Origin: Candidatus Poribacteria bacterium
GTDB taxonomy: Bacteria > Poribacteria > WGA-4E > GCA-2687025
Assembly (NCBI GenBank): GCA_026004875.1
Contig: BPJZ01000010.1
Location: 62,001 to 126,000, forward strand
DNA: 64,000 nt
Direction: 5' to 3'
Shown: in pieces, positions 2,043-63,245 of the stretch
Numbering within the stretch: the stretch's first letter is position 1
Layout: every line of letters begins with the position of its first letter
Translations under genes and position numbers: made by a program
Notes under the pieces: model-generated
Told to the model about the DNA's origin: nothing
Database searches by the model: none
What the model saw: the letters and a program-made list of their open reading frames with translations, nothing else

Positions 2043-2792
2043 GTGCGCAAGAGTGTCGTAGGCTGGCTTCTGGGGATGAGTGGGCTCCTGGTCGGGGCTT
2101 TGGCACAGGTTCCCGAACCGGTCTTCTACCTCCCTCTGGACGAAGGCGCAGGCGAGGTAACCTTTGACCAGATCGGCGGCGCCGAAGGCCGGATCGTCGG
2201 TGATGTCCAATGGACCACCGGCTACCGGGGCGCAGGTCTTGAGTTTGGCGGCAACGGATACGTCGAGTTCGAGCCGCTGGAAAGCTTAGATCTAACCGAA
2301 GCGATCTCCTTTGTCGGCTGGATACTCCCGACCAGCGCCCCGGCGGACACCAACCTCTGGGGCCGCCGCACGGCAGCCAACGTCGGCGGCTACACGATGC
2401 AGTGGACCGCCGGAAAGGTGGAAACCTGGCTCTGGCTGGGCGCTTGGACCGGCACACGAGGGCTCCAGACGATCCAACCCACCCTGAACGTATGGCACTT
2501 TGTCGCCTCGACCTATGACGGGAGCACCATCCGCCAGTACGTGGACGGAGAACTGGACATAGAAATCCCCGGCGGAGGACCGTTCCAATCCGTCGCGGAA
2601 ACCTTCCGGGTCGGACAGGCTCAAACAGGACTCCCGGCGATGCCGGGGATCATGGACGAGATCGCTATCTTCGATGAAGCGCTTTCGGCGGATCAACTAA
2701 AACGCATCCGGCAGCACGGAACCCCGCTCCCCGTGCGCCCCCAGGAACGACTGGCCCTCCTCTGGGCTACGCTAAAACAGAGAGGAAGATAA
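2043..2792 (+). CDS. Secreted LamG-domain protein with a C-terminal W-motif
   Basis: The protein has 249 aa. The GTG start at 2043 is preceded by GGAGGGG at good spacing; no upstream ATG fits better. Residues 1-21 are a signal peptide ending in ALA. The rest is one LamG/concanavalin-A-like jelly-roll domain: it opens with FYLPLDEGAG, has the sugar-binding-type core around WHFVASTYDGSTI, and closes with GIMDEIAIFDEALS. The last 20 residues, LPVRPQERLALLWATLK and a basic tail, match the C-terminus of the unrelated secreted protein at 62451-63245. There is no type IX sorting domain. The family binds glycans or mediates adhesion, but the ligand here is unknown. The next gene starts 9 bases downstream. 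Confidence 0.85.
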   Translation: MRKSVVGWLLGMSGLLVGALAQVPEPVFYLPLDEGAGEVTFDQIGGAEGRIVGDVQWTTGYRGAGLEFGGNGYVEFEPLESLDLTEAISFVGWILPTSAPADTNLWGRRTAANVGGYTMQWTAGKVETWLWLGAWTGTRGLQTIQPTLNVWHFVASTYDGSTIRQYVDGELDIEIPGGGPFQSVAETFRVGQAQTGLPAMPGIMDEIAIFDEALSADQLKRIRQHGTPLPVRPQERLALLWATLKQRGR

Positions 2793-18205: not shown

Positions 18206-19165
18206 CTAAGGAAGCACCTTCACTCGGCCCCAGGTGGTCGGTTGACCCGCCGGAATCGTCGGTCGCAACCCCCGCGGACCAAACCAGAAGGGGTGAAACT
18301 CCAGTTCCAGGCTCTCCGTCAGGTTCTGAGGTGGGCCGCCATTCGCGGGAACGCGAAAGATCTCCACATCGGCGAACAGATCGTCTAAAAGAAGCCGATC
18401 GAAGACAATCCAGTTTCCATCGGGAGACCAGGAGGGATGGCCGTCGGAGCCGGGGAGCGCCACCCGCGTCACCCGCCGGATCGCTCCGGAGAGGAAATCG
18501 AGCACAAAGATGCCCGCCGTCCCGGCCTCCTGACGACCAACGCTCACAAAGGCCACACGCCGACCGTCGGGAGACCAGGCCGGCTGCCGATCGGCAAACG
18601 GGTCGGCCGTCAGCCGTCGGCGACCGGTGCCGTCCTCTCGAATCCAGGCGAGGTCCCCCCCCTCCCGAAAGACGATCCCCTGGCCGGTGGGCGACCAATC
18701 GGGATCCTCTTCGTGTTGCGGCTCAAAGGTGATCCGAACCAGCTCTCCGCCGTCGCGGCGGACCCGGTAGAGGTCGTAGTTCCCGGCCCGATTGGAAGCA
18801 AAAACGATCCAGCTTCCATCGGGAGACCAACTTGGGCTGATGTCGTCCCCGGCTTCCTGAACCAATGGGACGACCCCTCGACTGACCAGATCGATCAGAA
18901 AAAGATCCCAATCGCCCCGGCCGTTCCGCTCGACGATCTGCTCGACGACAACGTAACGCCCGTCTGGAGAAAGCGTCGGGTTGATCCCAACGTCGCGCAG
19001 GAGTGTCTGAACCGGACCGCCGCTCGGCCCCATTCGGACCAAATCGTCGCTCCGGCTAAAATAGATCCATTCCTGAGCCTGCGTCCACCAGGACCCCAGA
19101 ACGACCCACCAGAGGATGCCCAGGAGGACCACACTCTTGGACCACCCGAAAGGCCTAGCGCGCAA
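18206..19165 (-). CDS. TolB-like PD40 beta-propeller protein
   Basis: The protein has 319 aa. An N-terminal hydrophobic segment (VVLLGILWWVVLGSWW, about residues 10-28) is a signal peptide or anchor. Six PD40/WD40-like blades follow, each with the repeat SPDGxWIxF or close: LSPDGRYVVVE, WSPDGSWIVFAS, WSPTGQGIVFRE, WSPDGRRVAFVS, WSPDGNWIVFDR. This is the propeller found in TolB of the Tol-Pal system and in many periplasmic proteins. The start overlaps the end of the VWA gene by 11 bases, so the two are probably translated together. Whether it is a true TolB is uncertain because Pal, TolA, TolQ and TolR are not in the window. Confidence 0.85.
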   Translation of the reverse strand: MRARPFGWSKSVVLLGILWWVVLGSWWTQAQEWIYFSRSDDLVRMGPSGGPVQTLLRDVGINPTLSPDGRYVVVEQIVERNGRGDWDLFLIDLVSRGVVPLVQEAGDDISPSWSPDGSWIVFASNRAGNYDLYRVRRDGGELVRITFEPQHEEDPDWSPTGQGIVFREGGDLAWIREDGTGRRRLTADPFADRQPAWSPDGRRVAFVSVGRQEAGTAGIFVLDFLSGAIRRVTRVALPGSDGHPSWSPDGNWIVFDRLLLDDLFADVEIFRVPANGGPPQNLTESLELEFHPFWFGPRGLRPTIPAGQPTTWGRVKVLP

Positions 19166-22561: not shown

Positions 22562-25500
22562 TCACTTGAGCAGGACCATCCGACGGACCACCCGCTGAGA
22601 GCCGGCGCGCAGTTCGTAGAAGTAAACGCCGCTGGCGACCGGTTCTCCAAGCTGATTCCGACCGTCCCAGTGGGCTGCACGGCCAGGACGCGTGTAGTAC
22701 CCCGCCTCCAGCCGGCCCAGCTCCAATCGACGCACTAGCTGGCCTTGAGCGTTGTAGATCAGCACCTGAACGTCCGCATCGGCCTCCAGCTCAAAGGGGA
22801 TCCAGGTCTCCGGATTAAAGGGGTTCGGATAGTTCGGCAGAAGCCGAGTCGCCTCCGGCGGCTGCCAAGTGATCAGCACCTGCGCGCGGTAGGTCCCCGG
22901 ACCGATCACCAGAGAGCCGGGGCGAGTTAGGTCCCGCTCGACGGACTGAATCCGGAACGTCGCTCGGTAGCCTTCTGGCAGTTCCAGCCGGTCCCAACGG
23001 AGCGTGGCCGACTCGGGGACGCTCAGGCTCAGCTCCCATGCGCTCGTTCCTCGCGTAACCGGCTGAACGCTCCGTCGAAGCCGCTTGGCGTAATCCTCCA
23101 CCCGAACGGTGAAGCTGAGGTCCCCCATCCCCTTGAGAGCGGGAGGCTCCGGAATGTCGTACCGATCCACCCGTGGCGTGGACTCTTTGGCGCTGCCAAG
23201 CTCCACCGTCCGAGTCAGCCCGCTGGCCGTCTCCAGCCGCAGAGAGAAACTCCAGTCGGGCCGAAGCTGCTCCTGGGTCAGCAAGGGCGACGCGTGAAAG
23301 TGAGTGCCGCTCCCGCTGGGGTCCAGATGGCGCACCTGAGCGATCGCCACCGTCTGAGTCCCCGACGTTGCCTTGTAGACCCAGTAGCCCTTTCCGGGTT
23401 CCAGGCTGGAGGCCGTAGAGTACTGGGCCCCGTCCCAGGTGAAAACGTAGTTAGGATTGTCCGTTACCGCCGAGATCGGCAGCGGCTCCGGCAGCGCTGC
23501 CGGTGCACCGATCAGGTTCCACCCCTGATAAAGCGTTACCTCCGTCGCCCGTGCCTCCGGGGCGTCCACGTCCACCTGAAGGGTCGCGCTCGGAACGCCA
23601 CTGGTCAGCAGGAAGAAACCATCGGCCAGCGGCATCGGATCGAAAGGACTGAGCGATACCCAACTCTGCGTAGCGGCATCCCATCTGTAGCTGGAAACCG
23701 CCACCTCAGAAAGCGGCGAAAGGTCGTCCGGCGGGCCGGGCAGCGAGAGCAGGTTCCAACCGTCTACCAGCGAATACACCTGAGGAACCGTGTCGGCAGC
23801 GTCCAGGCGAAGTTCAAATTCATAAACCCCTGTCGTCGAGCTGGTCAGAGCGATCGGGTTGTTTGTTAGTGAGAGAACATAGGTCTCCCACGTCGTCAGA
23901 TCGGTCAACAGCGCCTGAGTATAGTTCCCAGCAACGGTCAGCAGGTGATCAACCTCCTCCTGATTCCAGCTGAGCGTCGGTGCGGGGCTCGATTGAGGAT
24001 CCACTTGGACTCGAAGCGTCCAGACCAGATCGAACGGCGTGCCGGTCGGCTTGGCGAGGATGTCCCGCAGCAGGTCCTGCCCCTCGCGCTGAGCGCGAAT
24101 CTTGGGCATCGTCCCCACCTCCCCGTTCCAAAGCACATCCTCGGCAGGACTGAGAACAACCGCATCGCTCGCTGAGCCGTCCACGCCAAGCGCGACACTC
24201 GCCGTTCCCGAAGCGTCGGCCACCTGAATCCATGCGAACGCTTCCGGTAGGAAGCCGGACCAATCCAGTGTGTAAACGGGCCCAATCCCGGAAATCGGAA
24301 GTGTGGTGAAAGTAGCCAGATCGAGGGTGCGGAGCTCCCCGGCGACGTTCTCCCAATAGGCGAGTTGACCGGCGACCCCGTACACCGCATCCGGCGAGAG
24401 TGCCGGTAGGTCCGGATAGCCCGTTCCCACCACGACCGAAGCCAGATCGCTTCCGTCGGCCAAAAACGTGCGAATCTCCGTGTAACCGGGAGCATCTTCC
24501 TGGAAGAAGATCCGAGCCCCATCCGCCTGCCAGTCGAGATGCCGGAAGTCGGCGAAATCGGCGCTTCCTCTGAAGGTCAACGGCATCGTTCCCGTCCCGT
24601 CCGAACGGACAACGTAGATCTGCCACCACCCCTCCTGATCCGGGGCAACGTAGGCAAGCCAAGACCCATCCGGCGACCAGGAGTAGTAAAGGACGTCGCT
24701 TGGATGGAACGTCACCTGCTGAAGGTTCTGCCCATCCGGATCGATGGTGTGCACCTGGACCACGCCAGAGCCGTCCGCCTGTAAAAACGAAATCTTCGAC
24801 CCGTCCGGTGCCCACCTGGGCTGAGCTCCAGCGGTCGTCTCGAAGATATACCGCGGAAAGGAGCCGTCCCCGTTAGCTCGAACGATCCAGTACTGCTCGT
24901 TGTCCTCCTGAATGTAGAGGATCTCCGTCCCGTCAGGAGACCAGACCGGGTCGAACTTCAGCGTGGGCGTCGTCAGCGTTCGGAGGAACGTTCCGTCGGG
25001 GCGCATGCTCCGAATCCCCGTATCGTCAGTGAAGAGAAGCCGCGTCCGGGACAGGTCTCCAACAGGCGCCGTCCCCCGAACGACGCCGGAGACCGGAATC
25101 ACCCGCGGCCCGATCGCGTCGTAATCGAGCAGGAGCCGATCGAACGCTGGACCGAACGTCGTTGTGTTCAACGTCAGCGTAATGTCCGCCCCGTTGGTGT
25201 CGTCCACCGTTATCGGTGGGACCGTCCCCACCGAGAAGATCGTTCCGCCCTCCACGGTAAGTGAGTCGATCACCACGTTCGGGGTTGTCCAGCTGGTCGT
25301 CTCGACCAAGTGGATCGTTCCACTGACGGGGCTCCCCGGATCGGTCTCCCCGACCGAGAACGGGACCGGCGTTGTGCCGATTCGGGGCACCTGAGCGAAC
25401 CAAGCATCTCCAAAGAGGCTCCCATCCAGACCGTTGGTGGTCTTGTCGGCAGCGTTCGCCCCACCAAAGTCCCACAGAAGCACCAGGCCTGCTTCGGTTC

Positions 25501-28500
25501 CCGTCAGGAGTTGGGCGTGCCTCTGGAGGATTCTCCCTTCAGAAAGCGCCCGGTTCCAGACGCGCACCTCGCCGATCATCCCCTTGAAGTAGCCGTTCTC
25601 AAACGCGTAGCCGGATCCGGGAAGCGCCTCGGCAGAGCCGACTAGCAGCTTACGCGCGCCGACGTTTCCGCTCCGTTCCGCGGCGATGCGGTCAACCTCC
25701 ACGCCGTCCACGTAGAGGACCAGCTCCGAACCGGTAAAGACGCCGGCGATGTGATGCCAACGCTCGGAGCTGATCGTTGTTCCCGCAGAGACGGACCCCC
25801 CGACCGCGTTAAAGAGGGTAAAGTTGAGCACCCCTGAATCCTGATATTCGAACCCAAAGTCGAGACCGGCCCAGCCGCTGGCATCGTGGGCGTTGGAGAC
25901 CAAAAGCGCAGAAGTCGCCGACGTTGCCGGACTTCCGTGCGCTTCGGACCGCATCCAGAACTCAACGGTGAGCTCGGAATAGTCCCCCAACAGCGTGCTG
26001 GCCGGGGAGGCCAGATAGTCGCCGTTCCCGTCAAAGGTCGCGGCGATCTCCATCCCGGAGAGATCGGGCGTGAACGTCTGCTCCGGCGCAAAGGCCGAGG
26101 CCAGATAGCCCCCATCAATCGCCTGCACGCTCCAATAGAGCGGGACCATCGGAACGCGTCGAAGCGTCCAAGAAGTGTTCGATCCGACGTTCCCCCATTC
26201 GGTAGTGATGTTGGCCGACATGATCTCGCTACCGCCGGGCGTCGTCCCGACCCGAAGGTTGTAGGCTAAAGCCGACTGGGAGGTCATGTCGTCCGTCGCC
26301 GCTAGCCAAGAGAAGGTGACAACGCCGACGTCAACCAGCGTCGCGCTCAGCCCCGTTGGAGTCGTCGGTGGGTTGTTCGGGGGGATCAGATCGTTCCGCC
26401 AGACATGAATGCGGGGCGAACTGTACGTTCCTCCGGTCACAAAGATGTCGGTGCGACCGTCACCGTTGTAGTCGCCCACGTCCAAGCCACCGCTGTAATC
26501 GCCCCTTGTCAGCAGGAAGCTGCCAGGAAGAAACCCCACGCCGACGTTCTCGAGAATCGAGCTCCCACCCAGCCCATGAATCACCAGGTCCAAATCGAAG
26601 TCGTAGTCTAGGTCGGCCCATTCCACAGAGATATTCGATAAAAGCCCGCCGGGGATCGTCTGGAGAAGCGCAAAGCTACCCCCATCGTTCCGGTAAACGG
26701 AGATATCCCAATCTCCTGAGAATGGATCCTCGCCAGCAACGGCCAGATCCATGTCCCCGTCGCCATCGAAGTCCCCCCAGCGCGCCCCGGCCGTGTACTC
26801 CGTCCCCCGTTGCACCGGAGCGATTCCGGCGCCGATTGCAGTGAACAGCCAATCGTAGGTCCCTGAGGGATCCGGCCCGTCGTTTCGCCATATGTCCGCT
26901 TGGACGCTCTGACCGCTGTCACTACCGCTCATGAACAGGTCCATGTCGCCGTCGTTGTCGTAATCGGCCCAATCGGCGACGGCGGCGAGCACCGGCAGCG
27001 CGGTCGAGATGGCCGTTAACAGCGGCTGGCCCGGATTGGACGGGTCCTCCCCATCGTTTCGATAGAGGAACAGTTGAGGGATCGGCCCAGAAAACCCGCC
27101 GGTGAGAAAAACGTCCAGATCCCCATCGTTGTCAAAGTCCACCAGATGGACGTTCGGATACTCGACCCCGGTTGGGAGCCCCGTCGCGGTGGTGAAGCTC
27201 GTACCATCGTAGAGGTTCAGACCGAGCGTTTCGTCAAACAGCGAGTCTAGGCCGGAAATGACGACGTCGAGAAACCCGTCGTTGTTGACATCGCCGATAT
27301 CCACGTCGCTATCAGCGCCGTTGGCCGAGGGAAGCGCCGTTGGGGTTCCAAGGCCCAAAGCGATTTGAGCCAAAGGAGCGCCGGTGCTGGGATCCTCACC
27401 ACTGAGCACCAGATCCATGATGCCGTCGTTGTTGACGTCGCCCAGCTTGAGCGCCGCCTCCGTCGGCGGAGCAGTGTTGATCGCCGTGCCGTCCCCCGTG
27501 CTCTGGTCACTCCAAGCGATCACCAACGGTGGCAGTGCCGGCGACCAGTCCGCCTCGGAGAAAAGGTCCGTCAGCGCCCCGGAGCTGCCCGTCCCAGCGA
27601 TCAGCGTTGAGGTACCCGTCCCGTCCAACGCCGACAACCGATAGACGGTCCCAAAGGTTCCCCAAAGAGCCTCGAGCCCGTCCGGCGAGATGCGAAGCCA
27701 ATCGGCACCGATCGTGTCGTTCGTCAGGCGGGTCAACACTCCGGTAGCAAAGTCCAAACGGTAGACCTCCCCCGCAGGGTCGTCCATATCCGAGAGGAAG
27801 ATGATCCCCGACCCGTCCGGTAGCAGGTTTGGATACTCCTCAACAGCGCTCGAATGACTAAATATCAGCTCCGGATTGCTGAGCACGACTCCTGTGATCG
27901 GGTCAATTTCAATCTGGTAGATGTCAAAGCTTCCCCCACGGTCCGAAGTGAAGAGCAACACCCCTCCGTCCGGCGACCAGAACGGCTCAAATTCAGCCGA
28001 GGCATCCGACGTCAGCGGAATCGGCGTCCCCGTCCCGTCCGCATTGATCAGATAAAGGTCTCTCTGGGATAGGGAAAAATCGTCCATCGAATAGGCGATC
28101 CACAGGCCGTTGGGTGACCAGCGAAGGTCGGTGACGAATGCGTTGCTGTGGGTGGCAATCGTGGTGACCTCCCGACCGTCAATGGTCGCCACAAGAATCG
28201 CAGCGCTGCCAGTTGGAGGCGAGCCGGTGTTTTGAACAAAGGCGACCTTCCGCCCGTCCGGAGACCAGGCCGGATAGTCCTCATCGGGATCCCAAAGGCT
28301 CAGGTGGATCTGAACGGCAGCGCTCCCGTCCGGGTGGAGTGCAAAGATCCGATACGCGTCGGCGTCCGGATCGAGTGCCGAAACCGCCAAGCGCGTGTTG
28401 ACGTCTAAATCGCCAACCGGAGGCACCGCATCGGTGCCTACTCCTTGAAGCCTCACGTGTCGAGAACCGATCCCATCGTAATCCAAATAGAGATCGGCCA

Positions 28501-31102
28501 GCTCCAATCCTCGCCGATCCGGCGTGAACCCAACTGTTACGTCCATACTCGCGTTCACTCCGATCAAAGCGGGCAGTGAGGCCGCCGGCGTCGCCTCGAA
28601 GTTCCCTGTACCGGAGCCACTAAAGGACACCGCGTCAAACGACACTCCCGCCGTTCCCACGTTGGTGAGCGTCAACGTCTGGTCGGCTGCAGGGATGTTC
28701 ACCGTGCTCTGAAAAGGAGGCAGTGAGGTTGCAGAAAGCGTCATCCAACCGACCGGAGCAAACCCGTAGTTCCCATCGATGACCGCGCTGGAATCGGTGA
28801 CCAGCTCCCTGGCGTAACCGTCGTCAAAGTTCACGTGAATGATCAGCGACGTCGCCATAACCGGCGCAGTTGCGCCCATATCCTCCCAGATCTGATCCTG
28901 GGTCAGCGCCACGCCTTCCCAGACGCGAATCTCATCGTAACTGGCGGAGAATCCCGCCCAGTTATCGCCGACGTAGAGACCTGGATCGGCTGTACTCCCG
29001 GCTGTGATCCCACTGCTGATGGTTGTCTTCGCGTCCAGAAAGCCGTTGATGTAGATACGCAGGGTCAAATCTGCCGAATCCCAGACCGCCGCAACGTGGG
29101 TCCACCGATCGAGCGGAATGACGGACGTGCCCGTTAGAACCACGTCTGAAAGACTAGCGTCCCTCACGACCGTTTTGATATTGCCGCTAGGAGTGACGTA
29201 CACCCGAGGCGTCGGCGTCGGGCCGGTGGGATACCCAAACAGCAAGGCGTCGCTTGCTACTAACGCCGAAACGCGCACCCAGCCGGACAGCGTCCAGGCG
29301 ACGCTGGAGGTGATCGGCGCGCCGATCCCATCAATCGGGCCAACTCCACTCTCCTGGACAAGCGCCCGCTGCTGAACCCCTAGCGGCGGCAGGTCGGAGC
29401 TGGAGTAGCTCACATTCCCTTGAAAGAGCCCCAAAACTGCGTTTCCGCTCTTGTCCTCCGCAACCGGGGGCCCGTCGTTATCGAAGTTCCAGTAGACCTT
29501 CAGCGCTGGGTCCGGGCTGAGTCCCTGGGCATAGGCGGCCTTCTGAATTCCCAGCTGGTCCCGATCGACGTTCCAAATGCGCACCTCGTCTACCGAACCG
29601 GCGATCGTGTTCCCCGTTGTTGGGTTGTAGCCAACGTAAACAGCGCCGTAGGTGCTGGACAGAACGACCATCGTCTGAGAGAGGTAAAGCGAACCCCCTG
29701 ACTCGGCGACAAGCGCCCCGTCAACATAAACCCACGCGTCGAGTCCGTCGTACACCCCGGCAACGTGATGCCACTGACCGTCTGCGTAGGCAGAGGGGGC
29801 AAAGACGGTCGTTCCCCCCGCCTCAAAGGCGAGCACAGTGTTCGCGCCGTCCCAGCGCCAGCCGATCCCGTAAGCGCCAGTCCCGTCCGTCTGGCGGATG
29901 TCCACCAAGGAGTAGTTCCCGTTCGTCGAGGCGTCCGGAGCGGCGTCCAACCGAAACCAGGCCTCCAGCGTCACCGCGGAGAGGGTGCCCAAGGCCGAAA
30001 GGTTGTCCTCAGCGACTAAGTACCCACCCCCCAGCTGCAGGGACTGCGAGGGCGCGGCGGAACTGGTGTCCCGCGCGACGGCCGCCAGCCGGACCCGCGA
30101 CGCCCCCGGCGCGTCGGAGAGCACTTCGAGCGTCAAGTCCCTGTAGATCGCCGGAGCAGAATCGAGAAATTGAATCGGAATAGAAGCCGAATCGAGTGGG
30201 TTAAGCGCGATGGGAAAACTCGCCGTGGTGGTGAAGACCCCGGAGGGGAAGTTAATTCCCGTGATCGTGGCCGCTTGATCGCCGGTGTTCTGAACGTCCA
30301 GATTCACCACGGCCGACGTGTTCACCTCAGCGATTCCAAAGTCTAAAAGGGTCTGGGTGGCCGTCAGCCGCGGAATTGCCGTTGTCGTCGCTCCGTTCAG
30401 TAACGTCCCGTCGTTCATGCTTGCTGAGAGGTCGGGGACGATACTCGCCGTTGCGTTGTCGAACTCGTAGCGGAGAACCAGCGCCGGATGAGCGGAGGAG
30501 TCGTTCAGCATCTCTTCTAGGATGCCCCAGCCCGACGGCCCGTTGATCGCGTCCTGGTAGACCCGGACGTCGTCAATCATCCCCGGAAACTCACCGATGG
30601 ACCAAGCGAGCCCAAGCTGTCCCAGGCCGGCGGGTCCCACGGCCGTGGTGTCGAGAACGCCGTTGATATAGAGCGCCAGCTCTCCCGCGACCCCGTCGAG
30701 GCTCATCGCCACGTGCACCCACTGATTTGAAGGGATGGTCGCCACGCCGGTGATCGGATAAGGGTTCGACAGCGCATCCGTTACCGTCCCGAAGAGGCTC
30801 AGAAGGCCGCTGTTCTTGCTGACGTAAAACTGAGGACTTCCCGTAGGCTCGCCGAGGATAAGCGCCTGGGTCCCATCCGACATGACGCCCCCGTCCACAT
30901 AGACCCAAGCGGCCACCGTAAAACTGCTGCTGAGAGTAATCCCCGATGCGGTCAGAATCTGATCGTCCACCCCGTCCAGGACGGCTGCTTCTTCCGCCCC
31001 CCAAGCCCCGGTGGCCCCCAGAAGGAGCAACCACACGACAAGCGCTCCGGCAACTGCCTGTTTCTGCGGACGATTGGTCATCGTCTTGACTCCCGCTGCC
31101 AT
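22562..31102 (-). CDS. Giant secreted LamG / PD40 / VCBS protein with C-terminal sorting domain
   Basis: The protein has 2846 aa. ATG 31102, or ATG 31081, which has the better placed GGGAG. A signal peptide comes first (LVVWLLLLGATGAWGAE). Then LamG domains at about 37-235, 355-560 and 575-770, separated by choice-of-anchor-D-like beta domains; PD40 propeller blades (about 900-1190); VCBS/FG-GAP repeats with DVNNDGxxDLV motifs (about 1200-1540); FN3 (about 1570-1660); a fourth LamG (about 1685-1880); and a second PD40 set (about 2020-2280). A GWNLL/GWNLIG module (about 2440-2600) precedes the sorting domain LLPNYPNPFNPETWIPF (about 2752-2846). It is last of three giant genes on this strand. 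Likely role: cell-surface or extracellular adhesion or glycan binding. Confidence 0.9.
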   Translation of the reverse strand: MAAGVKTMTNRPQKQAVAGALVVWLLLLGATGAWGAEEAAVLDGVDDQILTASGITLSSSFTVAAWVYVDGGVMSDGTQALILGEPTGSPQFYVSKNSGLLSLFGTVTDALSNPYPITGVATIPSNQWVHVAMSLDGVAGELALYINGVLDTTAVGPAGLGQLGLAWSIGEFPGMIDDVRVYQDAINGPSGWGILEEMLNDSSAHPALVLRYEFDNATASIVPDLSASMNDGTLLNGATTTAIPRLTATQTLLDFGIAEVNTSAVVNLDVQNTGDQAATITGINFPSGVFTTTASFPIALNPLDSASIPIQFLDSAPAIYRDLTLEVLSDAPGASRVRLAAVARDTSSAAPSQSLQLGGGYLVAEDNLSALGTLSAVTLEAWFRLDAAPDASTNGNYSLVDIRQTDGTGAYGIGWRWDGANTVLAFEAGGTTVFAPSAYADGQWHHVAGVYDGLDAWVYVDGALVAESGGSLYLSQTMVVLSSTYGAVYVGYNPTTGNTIAGSVDEVRIWNVDRDQLGIQKAAYAQGLSPDPALKVYWNFDNDGPPVAEDKSGNAVLGLFQGNVSYSSSDLPPLGVQQRALVQESGVGPIDGIGAPITSSVAWTLSGWVRVSALVASDALLFGYPTGPTPTPRVYVTPSGNIKTVVRDASLSDVVLTGTSVIPLDRWTHVAAVWDSADLTLRIYINGFLDAKTTISSGITAGSTADPGLYVGDNWAGFSASYDEIRVWEGVALTQDQIWEDMGATAPVMATSLIIHVNFDDGYARELVTDSSAVIDGNYGFAPVGWMTLSATSLPPFQSTVNIPAADQTLTLTNVGTAGVSFDAVSFSGSGTGNFEATPAASLPALIGVNASMDVTVGFTPDRRGLELADLYLDYDGIGSRHVRLQGVGTDAVPPVGDLDVNTRLAVSALDPDADAYRIFALHPDGSAAVQIHLSLWDPDEDYPAWSPDGRKVAFVQNTGSPPTGSAAILVATIDGREVTTIATHSNAFVTDLRWSPNGLWIAYSMDDFSLSQRDLYLINADGTGTPIPLTSDASAEFEPFWSPDGGVLLFTSDRGGSFDIYQIEIDPITGVVLSNPELIFSHSSAVEEYPNLLPDGSGIIFLSDMDDPAGEVYRLDFATGVLTRLTNDTIGADWLRISPDGLEALWGTFGTVYRLSALDGTGTSTLIAGTGSSGALTDLFSEADWSPALPPLVIAWSDQSTGDGTAINTAPPTEAALKLGDVNNDGIMDLVLSGEDPSTGAPLAQIALGLGTPTALPSANGADSDVDIGDVNNDGFLDVVISGLDSLFDETLGLNLYDGTSFTTATGLPTGVEYPNVHLVDFDNDGDLDVFLTGGFSGPIPQLFLYRNDGEDPSNPGQPLLTAISTALPVLAAVADWADYDNDGDMDLFMSGSDSGQSVQADIWRNDGPDPSGTYDWLFTAIGAGIAPVQRGTEYTAGARWGDFDGDGDMDLAVAGEDPFSGDWDISVYRNDGGSFALLQTIPGGLLSNISVEWADLDYDFDLDLVIHGLGGSSILENVGVGFLPGSFLLTRGDYSGGLDVGDYNGDGRTDIFVTGGTYSSPRIHVWRNDLIPPNNPPTTPTGLSATLVDVGVVTFSWLAATDDMTSQSALAYNLRVGTTPGGSEIMSANITTEWGNVGSNTSWTLRRVPMVPLYWSVQAIDGGYLASAFAPEQTFTPDLSGMEIAATFDGNGDYLASPASTLLGDYSELTVEFWMRSEAHGSPATSATSALLVSNAHDASGWAGLDFGFEYQDSGVLNFTLFNAVGGSVSAGTTISSERWHHIAGVFTGSELVLYVDGVEVDRIAAERSGNVGARKLLVGSAEALPGSGYAFENGYFKGMIGEVRVWNRALSEGRILQRHAQLLTGTEAGLVLLWDFGGANAADKTTNGLDGSLFGDAWFAQVPRIGTTPVPFSVGETDPGSPVSGTIHLVETTSWTTPNVVIDSLTVEGGTIFSVGTVPPITVDDTNGADITLTLNTTTFGPAFDRLLLDYDAIGPRVIPVSGVVRGTAPVGDLSRTRLLFTDDTGIRSMRPDGTFLRTLTTPTLKFDPVWSPDGTEILYIQEDNEQYWIVRANGDGSFPRYIFETTAGAQPRWAPDGSKISFLQADGSGVVQVHTIDPDGQNLQQVTFHPSDVLYYSWSPDGSWLAYVAPDQEGWWQIYVVRSDGTGTMPLTFRGSADFADFRHLDWQADGARIFFQEDAPGYTEIRTFLADGSDLASVVVGTGYPDLPALSPDAVYGVAGQLAYWENVAGELRTLDLATFTTLPISGIGPVYTLDWSGFLPEAFAWIQVADASGTASVALGVDGSASDAVVLSPAEDVLWNGEVGTMPKIRAQREGQDLLRDILAKPTGTPFDLVWTLRVQVDPQSSPAPTLSWNQEEVDHLLTVAGNYTQALLTDLTTWETYVLSLTNNPIALTSSTTGVYEFELRLDAADTVPQVYSLVDGWNLLSLPGPPDDLSPLSEVAVSSYRWDAATQSWVSLSPFDPMPLADGFFLLTSGVPSATLQVDVDAPEARATEVTLYQGWNLIGAPAALPEPLPISAVTDNPNYVFTWDGAQYSTASSLEPGKGYWVYKATSGTQTVAIAQVRHLDPSGSGTHFHASPLLTQEQLRPDWSFSLRLETASGLTRTVELGSAKESTPRVDRYDIPEPPALKGMGDLSFTVRVEDYAKRLRRSVQPVTRGTSAWELSLSVPESATLRWDRLELPEGYRATFRIQSVERDLTRPGSLVIGPGTYRAQVLITWQPPEATRLLPNYPNPFNPETWIPFELEADADVQVLIYNAQGQLVRRLELGRLEAGYYTRPGRAAHWDGRNQLGEPVASGVYFYELRAGSQRVVRRMVLLK

Positions 31103-62450: not shown

Positions 62451-63245
62451 TTAACGAAGGGCCTTCAACGCGCCCCACACAACGGCGGCCTTACCCTGAG
62501 GACCGACCGTTAGCGGCGCTGGACCTAGGTCGCCTTGAATGCTGTCGCTGACGATCAGAACGTTGTCGAGATAGACAAACTCATTCAGGTTCCAACCGGC
62601 ATCTAGCTTCTGTTCCACCTCAAAGTAAAGAAAGACGCTCGTTGGGTCGGAGAGTGCCCACGTTGAGCGTTCCGGCAACCTCACCGGTGGCTCCGTCGTC
62701 CACCAGGATTTGGTACTCAAAGACGTTCTCCTGATTCGTCGGCGTGTAGGTGTGCTTGAAGTGGTGCCAGTCATCGGCGGAGACGAACAGATTCGGTTCT
62801 GGGTCCGCTTTGGCTCCTAGAGCTCCGTCCGTCTCGAAGCCGAGCACCTCCGAGTCCACGTTGAAGGCGATGATCCCGCGGTTCCAGAGGCCCCCGACGC
62901 CCCTCGGTCTCGAAGTTGGTCAGGTAGGGTGTGAAAGTCCCGGATTCGCTGCCAGAGGGTCGAACTCCAGCGTCAGCGGTCCGGCCGTCAAGTCCAGGGG
63001 AAAGGCCAGCCGAATTCCCGCTCCTTCCCATCCGTCCACAAAGTTCGTGTACTCGACCCGCCCGTTTTTCCTCCTCGACCGTCTCGGTGGTCGCCCCGTC
63101 GGTGAACATCACCCGCCAGAACTGCTCGTCAAGAACCCCATCCTCAAAATCGTCGCCGAAGGAGCCGGCCTCTGCCGCCGGCGTCCCTAACATCATCCAG
63201 ACGCCGAGTGCGACGCCGGCAACCAAGAGACCACCAGCGCTTCAT
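62451..63245 (-). CDS. Small secreted protein with a C-terminal W-motif (five frameshifts)
   Basis: I read one gene through five probable base errors: delete one base at 63223-63224, 63065-63069, 62900-62903 and 62657-62659, and add one near 62958. The result is 263 aa, a whole number of codons. AAGGAGG precedes the ATG at 63245. The signal peptide is MKRWWSLVAGVALGVWMMLG followed by TPAAEA. The mature part is a beta-rich LamG/concanavalin-like sandwich (FGDDFEDGVLDEQFWRVMF, WHHFKHTYTPTNQENVFEYQ, YLDNVLIVSD). The end, LTVGPQGKAAVVWGALK, matches the C-terminus of the LamG protein at 2043-2792. A strong terminator follows. Confidence 0.65.

Follow-up and report, generated by a model that had tools for sequence, protein, structure and literature searches.

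The LamG-domain protein encoded near the start of the window (the whole 64,000-nucleotide stretch of Candidatus Poribacteria DNA that was analysed) and a second exported protein near its end share a short C-terminal sequence. This raised the question of whether the shared tail is a signal for sorting, anchoring or assembly, or instead the closing element conserved in a single protein family, the two readings offered by the original prediction. The tagged genes of the window and their parts were as follows.

2043-2792, + strand: intact gene of a LamG (Laminin_G_3) exported protein, 249 aa, with a GTG start and a TAA stop at 2790-2792
2043-2108, + strand: probable Sec signal peptide of the LamG protein, MRKSVVGWLLGMSGLLVGALAQ, read off the sequence, with an inferred cleavage site
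2244-2699, + strand: LamG jellyroll domain, residues 68-219 (Pfam PF13385, E=2.2e-22)
2727-2777, + strand: C-terminal tag of the LamG protein, LPVRPQERLALLWATLK, 17 residues (tail-profile match, E=8.7e-9)
18206-19165, - strand: PD40 (TolB-like) beta-propeller protein whose N-terminus resembles a signal peptide and which ends PAGQPTTWGRVKVLP (PF07676, E=2.4e-36)
18218-18268, - strand: degenerate C-terminal tag of the PD40 protein, LRPTIPAGQPTTWGRVK, then VLP and the stop (from the sequence)
62454-62816, - strand: final open stretch of an exported protein whose gene is frameshifted, with the tag at its end (tail-profile match, E=3.1e-8)
62463-62513, - strand: C-terminal tag of that protein, LTVGPQGKAAVVWGALK, then ALR and the stop (from the sequence)
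62771-63226, - strand: remainder of that broken gene, upstream and in different frames, the signal-peptide start in one frame and the middle in another

As had been predicted, the LamG protein ended with the tag, and QRGR (to 2789) was found between LPVRPQERLALLWATLK and the stop. In its AlphaFold2 model (mean pLDDT 91.8), a helix at residues 2-17 lay in the probable signal peptide, and the folded domain was followed by a low-confidence linker (block mean 63) and then the tag, which was modelled as a helix at residues 233-248 with an end-block pLDDT of about 80. The modelled helix of the tag is tentative, because its helical moment was no higher than that of shuffled sequences and its strand moment was higher. 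Searching the PDB for folds similar to the model returned generic ConA/LamG jellyrolls only.

The second protein, read by the original prediction as a single open frame at 62451-63245, kept its tail but lost its frame: the homologous reading, from 63226 down to 62451, had to shift frame at least three times and used each of the three minus-strand frames. Three consecutive genes appeared frameshifted between 60300 and 64000 of the window, namely those of an FG-GAP protein, the tagged protein and a TIM-barrel isomerase-like protein, the two neighbours of the tagged gene lying at 60-61.5 kb and 63.4-64 kb. Since the end of contig C10 (127,696 bases) is 1.7-3.7 kb away from the frameshifted region, an assembly error is as likely as real pseudogenes. 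Both of the tagged proteins first singled out were genuine, if weak, examples, and a third, degenerate copy had been missed, that of the PD40 protein, which was homologous to tagged Poribacteria proteins (E=2e-34) with clearer tags.

Across 267 tails, the tag had the consensus [LT][APS]V[ED]PxGKL[AT]TxW[GA]xLK, approximately 17 residues carrying about 47 bits; in 263 of these tails its Trp lay 5-11 residues ahead of the stop. When positions were counted from this Trp, the fixed ones were V-10 (262 tails), P-8 (247), G-6 (217), K-5 (264), T-2 (219), W0 (267), G/A+1 (264), L+3 (217) and K+4 (264); the "PQ" of the pattern first proposed was not conserved. A tail-only profile, consisting of the last 22 columns, gave 206 distinct matches in loci of the phylum, of which 205 ended 0-9 residues from the stop, the sole exception preceding a T9SS (type IX secretion) domain. 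Column-shuffled profiles gave 0 matches, and a chance origin of the tag was therefore rejected. The fixed residues were mostly encoded by mixed synonymous codons, which argues for selection at the protein level without recent copying and disfavours a recent spread by gene conversion. As a separate observation, the conserved Thr at -2 was encoded by ACC in 29 of 33 copies of the genome that holds the window, the other fixed residues having mixed codons.

We found that the tag behaved as a module. The LamG protein, used as query against its own genome (G000, 2.84 Mb, 64% complete), retrieved about 20 LamG homologues, nearly all of them ending in the tag motif. Over the larger set, 274 tagged proteins fell into 49 blastp body clusters, with 22 singletons. 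The mean identity of the tag was 0.595 within clusters versus 0.569 between them, and that of the 17 residues directly upstream was 0.135 versus 0.072. Since tag identity was the same within and between clusters while the upstream residues were random, the shared tail is not explained by LamG homology. The tagged proteins were small, typically 200-350 aa, and often carbohydrate-binding or beta-sandwich proteins, with LamG, CBM_4_9, NPCBM, CBM9, PKD, Cohesin, 3-keto-disaccharide hydrolase, DUF6250 and CBM60 among their Pfam domains. Their genes often stood in tandem runs of 2-4, some with related bodies (in the window's own genome at C8:13765-16117, C5:24652-26579, C8:55781-57255 and C27:11139-13003 of G000). 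Loci L121, L224 and L227, among others, held homologues of tagged proteins with divergent tags (such as FSVAPVGKKFTMWGWLKQVDR) that were missed by the profile, so that copy numbers are underestimated.

Other C-terminal modules were met on the same bodies. Some tagged bodies had homologues with a T9SS domain at the C-terminus in place of the tag (L172, L221), and in L221 and L223 homologues of a tagged protein ended in dockerin-like repeats (DGVVNILDLTFVA...), which are apparently a third interchangeable C-terminal module. Within the window, a protein of 2862 aa on the minus strand (approximately 22574-30127) had a LamG-like stretch with homology to the tagged LamG proteins and ended in the T9SS NYPNPFNP domain; its domain type is shared with them, while its C-terminal signal is the alternative one.

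The distribution of the tag was then defined by genome. About 60 ORFs of G000 carried the motif at their terminus by the tail-only profile. All 85 Poribacteria genomes were positive, with copy numbers from 19 to at least 106 per genome and 60-100 in most; they covered 22 genera, and two families from outside the class were among them. Of 289 relatives searched, these 85 were the only positives, leaving 0 of 204 positive outside the phylum. When a degenerate DNA pattern was run over 257 Gb of GTDB genomes, at least 115 loci matched, and 115 of 115 among the matches listed were Candidatus Poribacteria. Pfam and NCBIfam scans of the tagged proteins gave no model covering the tail, no NCBIfam model matched the tail peptides by themselves at E up to 10, and no description of the tag was found in the open-licence literature. 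C-terminal sorting tags are a known kind of signal; the architecture of the Poribacteria tag is new with respect to the databases and literature searched.

We further examined the tagged proteins for export signals and compared the tag with known tag families. By a simple heuristic rule, signal-peptide-like N-termini were called in 51 of 55 tagged ORFs of the window's own genome and 168 of 191 of the phylum, compared to 157 of 424 other ORFs; many of the tagged ORFs that failed the rule started within a gene, at a locus edge or past a frameshift. The matches combined signal peptides with varied domains, a point that the original prediction had proposed to test. Cytosolic encapsulation or docking peptides, as in microcompartment or encapsulin cargo, were rejected, given that nearly all complete tagged ORFs had a signal peptide. 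No transmembrane-like window was found in the last 60 residues of any of the 274 tagged proteins, no Cys in the last 25 aa of the 274 tails, and LPxT[GA] occurred once, by chance. Exosortase was detected in 3 of the 85 genomes of the phylum and was not detected in G000. On these grounds PEP-CTERM, MYXO-CTERM, GlyGly-CTERM and LPXTG were excluded as families: the C-terminal transmembrane helix with basic end of PEP-CTERM/exosortase substrates was missing and the enzyme rare, the invariant Cys that precedes the transmembrane helix in MYXO-CTERM/myxosortase substrates was missing, and LPXTG/sortase substrates would require LPxTG, a transmembrane helix and a basic end.

Profile searches indicate that Poribacteria encode components of the system, including putative SprA, PorV-family proteins and C25 / PorU-type proteases. 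SprA_N was detected in 83 of the 85 genomes (TIGR04189 scored 506 bits in G000), Peptidase_C25 in 84, and both the PorV family, at 8-24 copies per genome, and T9SS tails (TIGR04183) in all 85; component loci were seen in G000 (C30:19-5760, L282) and in a second genome, G022 (L280:2392-8904). In G000, 14 T9SS tails were found on other, mostly larger, proteins. These components contrast with a 2014 poribacterial single-cell study, in which the sorting domain was reported and T9SS structural genes were not found (PMC3909097).

The NYPNPFNP domain, said by the original prediction to be absent from its two proteins, was absent from most tagged proteins, but in some proteins a tag-like segment lay directly upstream of it. 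With a DNA pattern picked after two examples had been seen, W[GA]x[LIV][KR] was found at a fixed short spacing before NYPNPFNP in 62 of 85 genomes and 11 of 22 genera, although most of these fusions belonged to one orthologous group, so that 62 genomes are not 62 events. The reversed-pattern control gave 0. Fuller tags were present in fusion loci on several kinds of body (for example AVEPTGKQSTTWGKIK-TAEVFQ-NYPNPFNPETW), and fused tags were often degenerate. In a few f5/f6 fusion matches (e.g. L253, L255 and L258), L replaced W and the W of the pattern was out of frame. The fusion tag was modelled as disordered between passenger and CTD (AlphaFold2, block mean pLDDT 38).

The tag is modular, terminal, strongly conserved, universal in the phylum and specific to it, and it is associated with signal peptides and with the T9SS domain. 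We propose, with a probability of roughly 0.66, that it is a phylum-specific modular C-terminal sorting or attachment signal, possibly linked to the T9SS, on Sec-exported Poribacteria proteins. The results supported the sorting, anchoring or assembly reading of the original prediction, and we infer that sorting, retention or attachment, with the signal read at the mature C-terminus, is the function. According to the sequences, the signal peptide would carry the protein over the inner membrane, and by the AlphaFold2 model the tag would be exposed, joined to the folded domain through a short linker. At the mature C-terminus, V-x-P-x-G-K-L-x-T-x-W-G-x-L-K would then be read by an envelope receptor dedicated to it or by an enzyme of the sortase type, and the protein would be retained, transported or attached at the outer membrane or cell surface. 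In the fusions, once the CTD had been removed, the tag would lie at or close to the C-terminus of the mature protein, where tag-only proteins have it from birth. The type IX system is plausibly linked to the tag, because SprA, PorV and PorU-type proteins are encoded in the phylum and a tag-like segment stands at fixed spacing before the CTD. Bacteroidota usually have a few PorV-family copies; these outer-membrane barrels were expanded to 8-24 per genome in Poribacteria, and the expanded family is a candidate receptor set for the tag.

The main rival to a sorting signal is a non-covalent docking peptide. The tag could bind a scaffold, whether S-layer-like, exopolysaccharide-bound or an extracellular complex, in the manner of dockerin and cohesin and with no role in secretion or sortase processing. 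It is short, soluble, exposed and terminal, many of its carriers are carbohydrate-binding modules, the modelled helix could serve as a binding peptide, and some homologous bodies end in an apparent dockerin. However, no scaffold candidate was found, and docking leaves the fixed spacing before the T9SS domain unexplained. We regard this reading as improbable.

We consider it somewhat less probable still that the tag is a reduced T9SS signal, read by PorV or SprA and driving outer-membrane translocation. The phylum does encode SprA, PorV paralogues and C25 proteases, tag and T9SS domain occur on homologous bodies, and tagged proteins share with T9SS cargo an N-terminal signal peptide and a genome with SprA, PorV and PorU-type components. 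The precedent for such a signal is the short T9SS CTDs of Prevotella intermedia (PMC11969387), which have motifs B, D (GxY) and E in a length of 40-55 aa, whereas the tag is about 20 aa, with neither these motifs nor a sheet domain of at least 40 aa, and GxY occurred in the last 45 aa of only 8 of 274 tagged proteins. In the fusions, moreover, the conserved stretch stood before the CTD and not within it. Since the shortest characterised CTDs are of 40-55 residues and carry motifs B, D and E, the tag itself is not a T9SS CTD.

That tag-only proteins are former T9SS cargo that lost its CTD, the tag being a leftover linker, would fit its position directly before the CTD in some proteins. We regard this as very improbable, as about 47 bits are conserved at the terminus whereas the segment before the CTD is often degenerate, and the 60-100 copies kept in most of the 85 genomes would need active selection. 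Finally, ordinary homology, in which the tag would close the fold of a single LamG family, drew on LamG proteins being the largest tagged group and was refuted by the 49 body clusters with many other domains and by the position of the tag, which was neither confined to one LamG subfamily nor within the fold but past it, after the low-confidence linker.

Beyond the modular sorting or attachment signal as such, a more specific form of the proposal is offered tentatively, as we would put it below even odds. The tag may represent a new class of sorting signal that arose in Poribacteria, a soluble peptide about 17 residues long that has no transmembrane helix, no Cys and no folded domain. At the mature C-terminus it would be read by a sortase or by an envelope receptor dedicated to it, perhaps a PorV-family barrel, on which tag-only proteins and CTD-cleaved T9SS cargo would converge. 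In either form, the tag defines a large set of exported proteins, from tens to more than 100 per genome, for a phylum that is uncultured and has become known mainly through marine sponges, and the tail profile is a simple predictor of them. To our knowledge, comparably broad C-terminal sorting tags (PEP-CTERM, GlyGly-CTERM, MYXO-CTERM and the T9SS CTD) have all led to a processing enzyme or a secretion system, so the search for a partner of this differently built, phylum-private tag is directly testable.

Among known systems, MYXO-CTERM is a C-terminal sorting tag found throughout the phylum Myxococcota, where each genome has it on dozens of exported proteins (PMC11980579), and the Poribacteria tag resembles it in this respect. 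MYXO-CTERM, however, combines an invariant Cys with a transmembrane helix and an Arg-rich terminus, while the Poribacteria tails have neither Cys nor a transmembrane-like window. As with PEP-CTERM/exosortase and GlyGly-CTERM/rhombosortase, a short C-terminal homology domain is placed on many unrelated exported proteins; both of these need a transmembrane helix and a basic end, and the tag has no transmembrane helix. Like the T9SS type A CTD (TIGR04183, Por_Secre_tail), it is a C-terminal module on signal-peptide proteins with varied domains, in the same genomes and, in the fusions, adjoining that CTD, but the latter is a beta-sandwich of roughly 70 residues with motifs B, D and E, whereas the tag is of about 20 residues and lacks these motifs. 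A parallel for short C-terminal signals beside long ones in one genome is offered by Prevotella intermedia, whose short CTDs differ in having three beta-strands, motifs B/D/E and a cleavage motif, all of which the Poribacteria tag does without.
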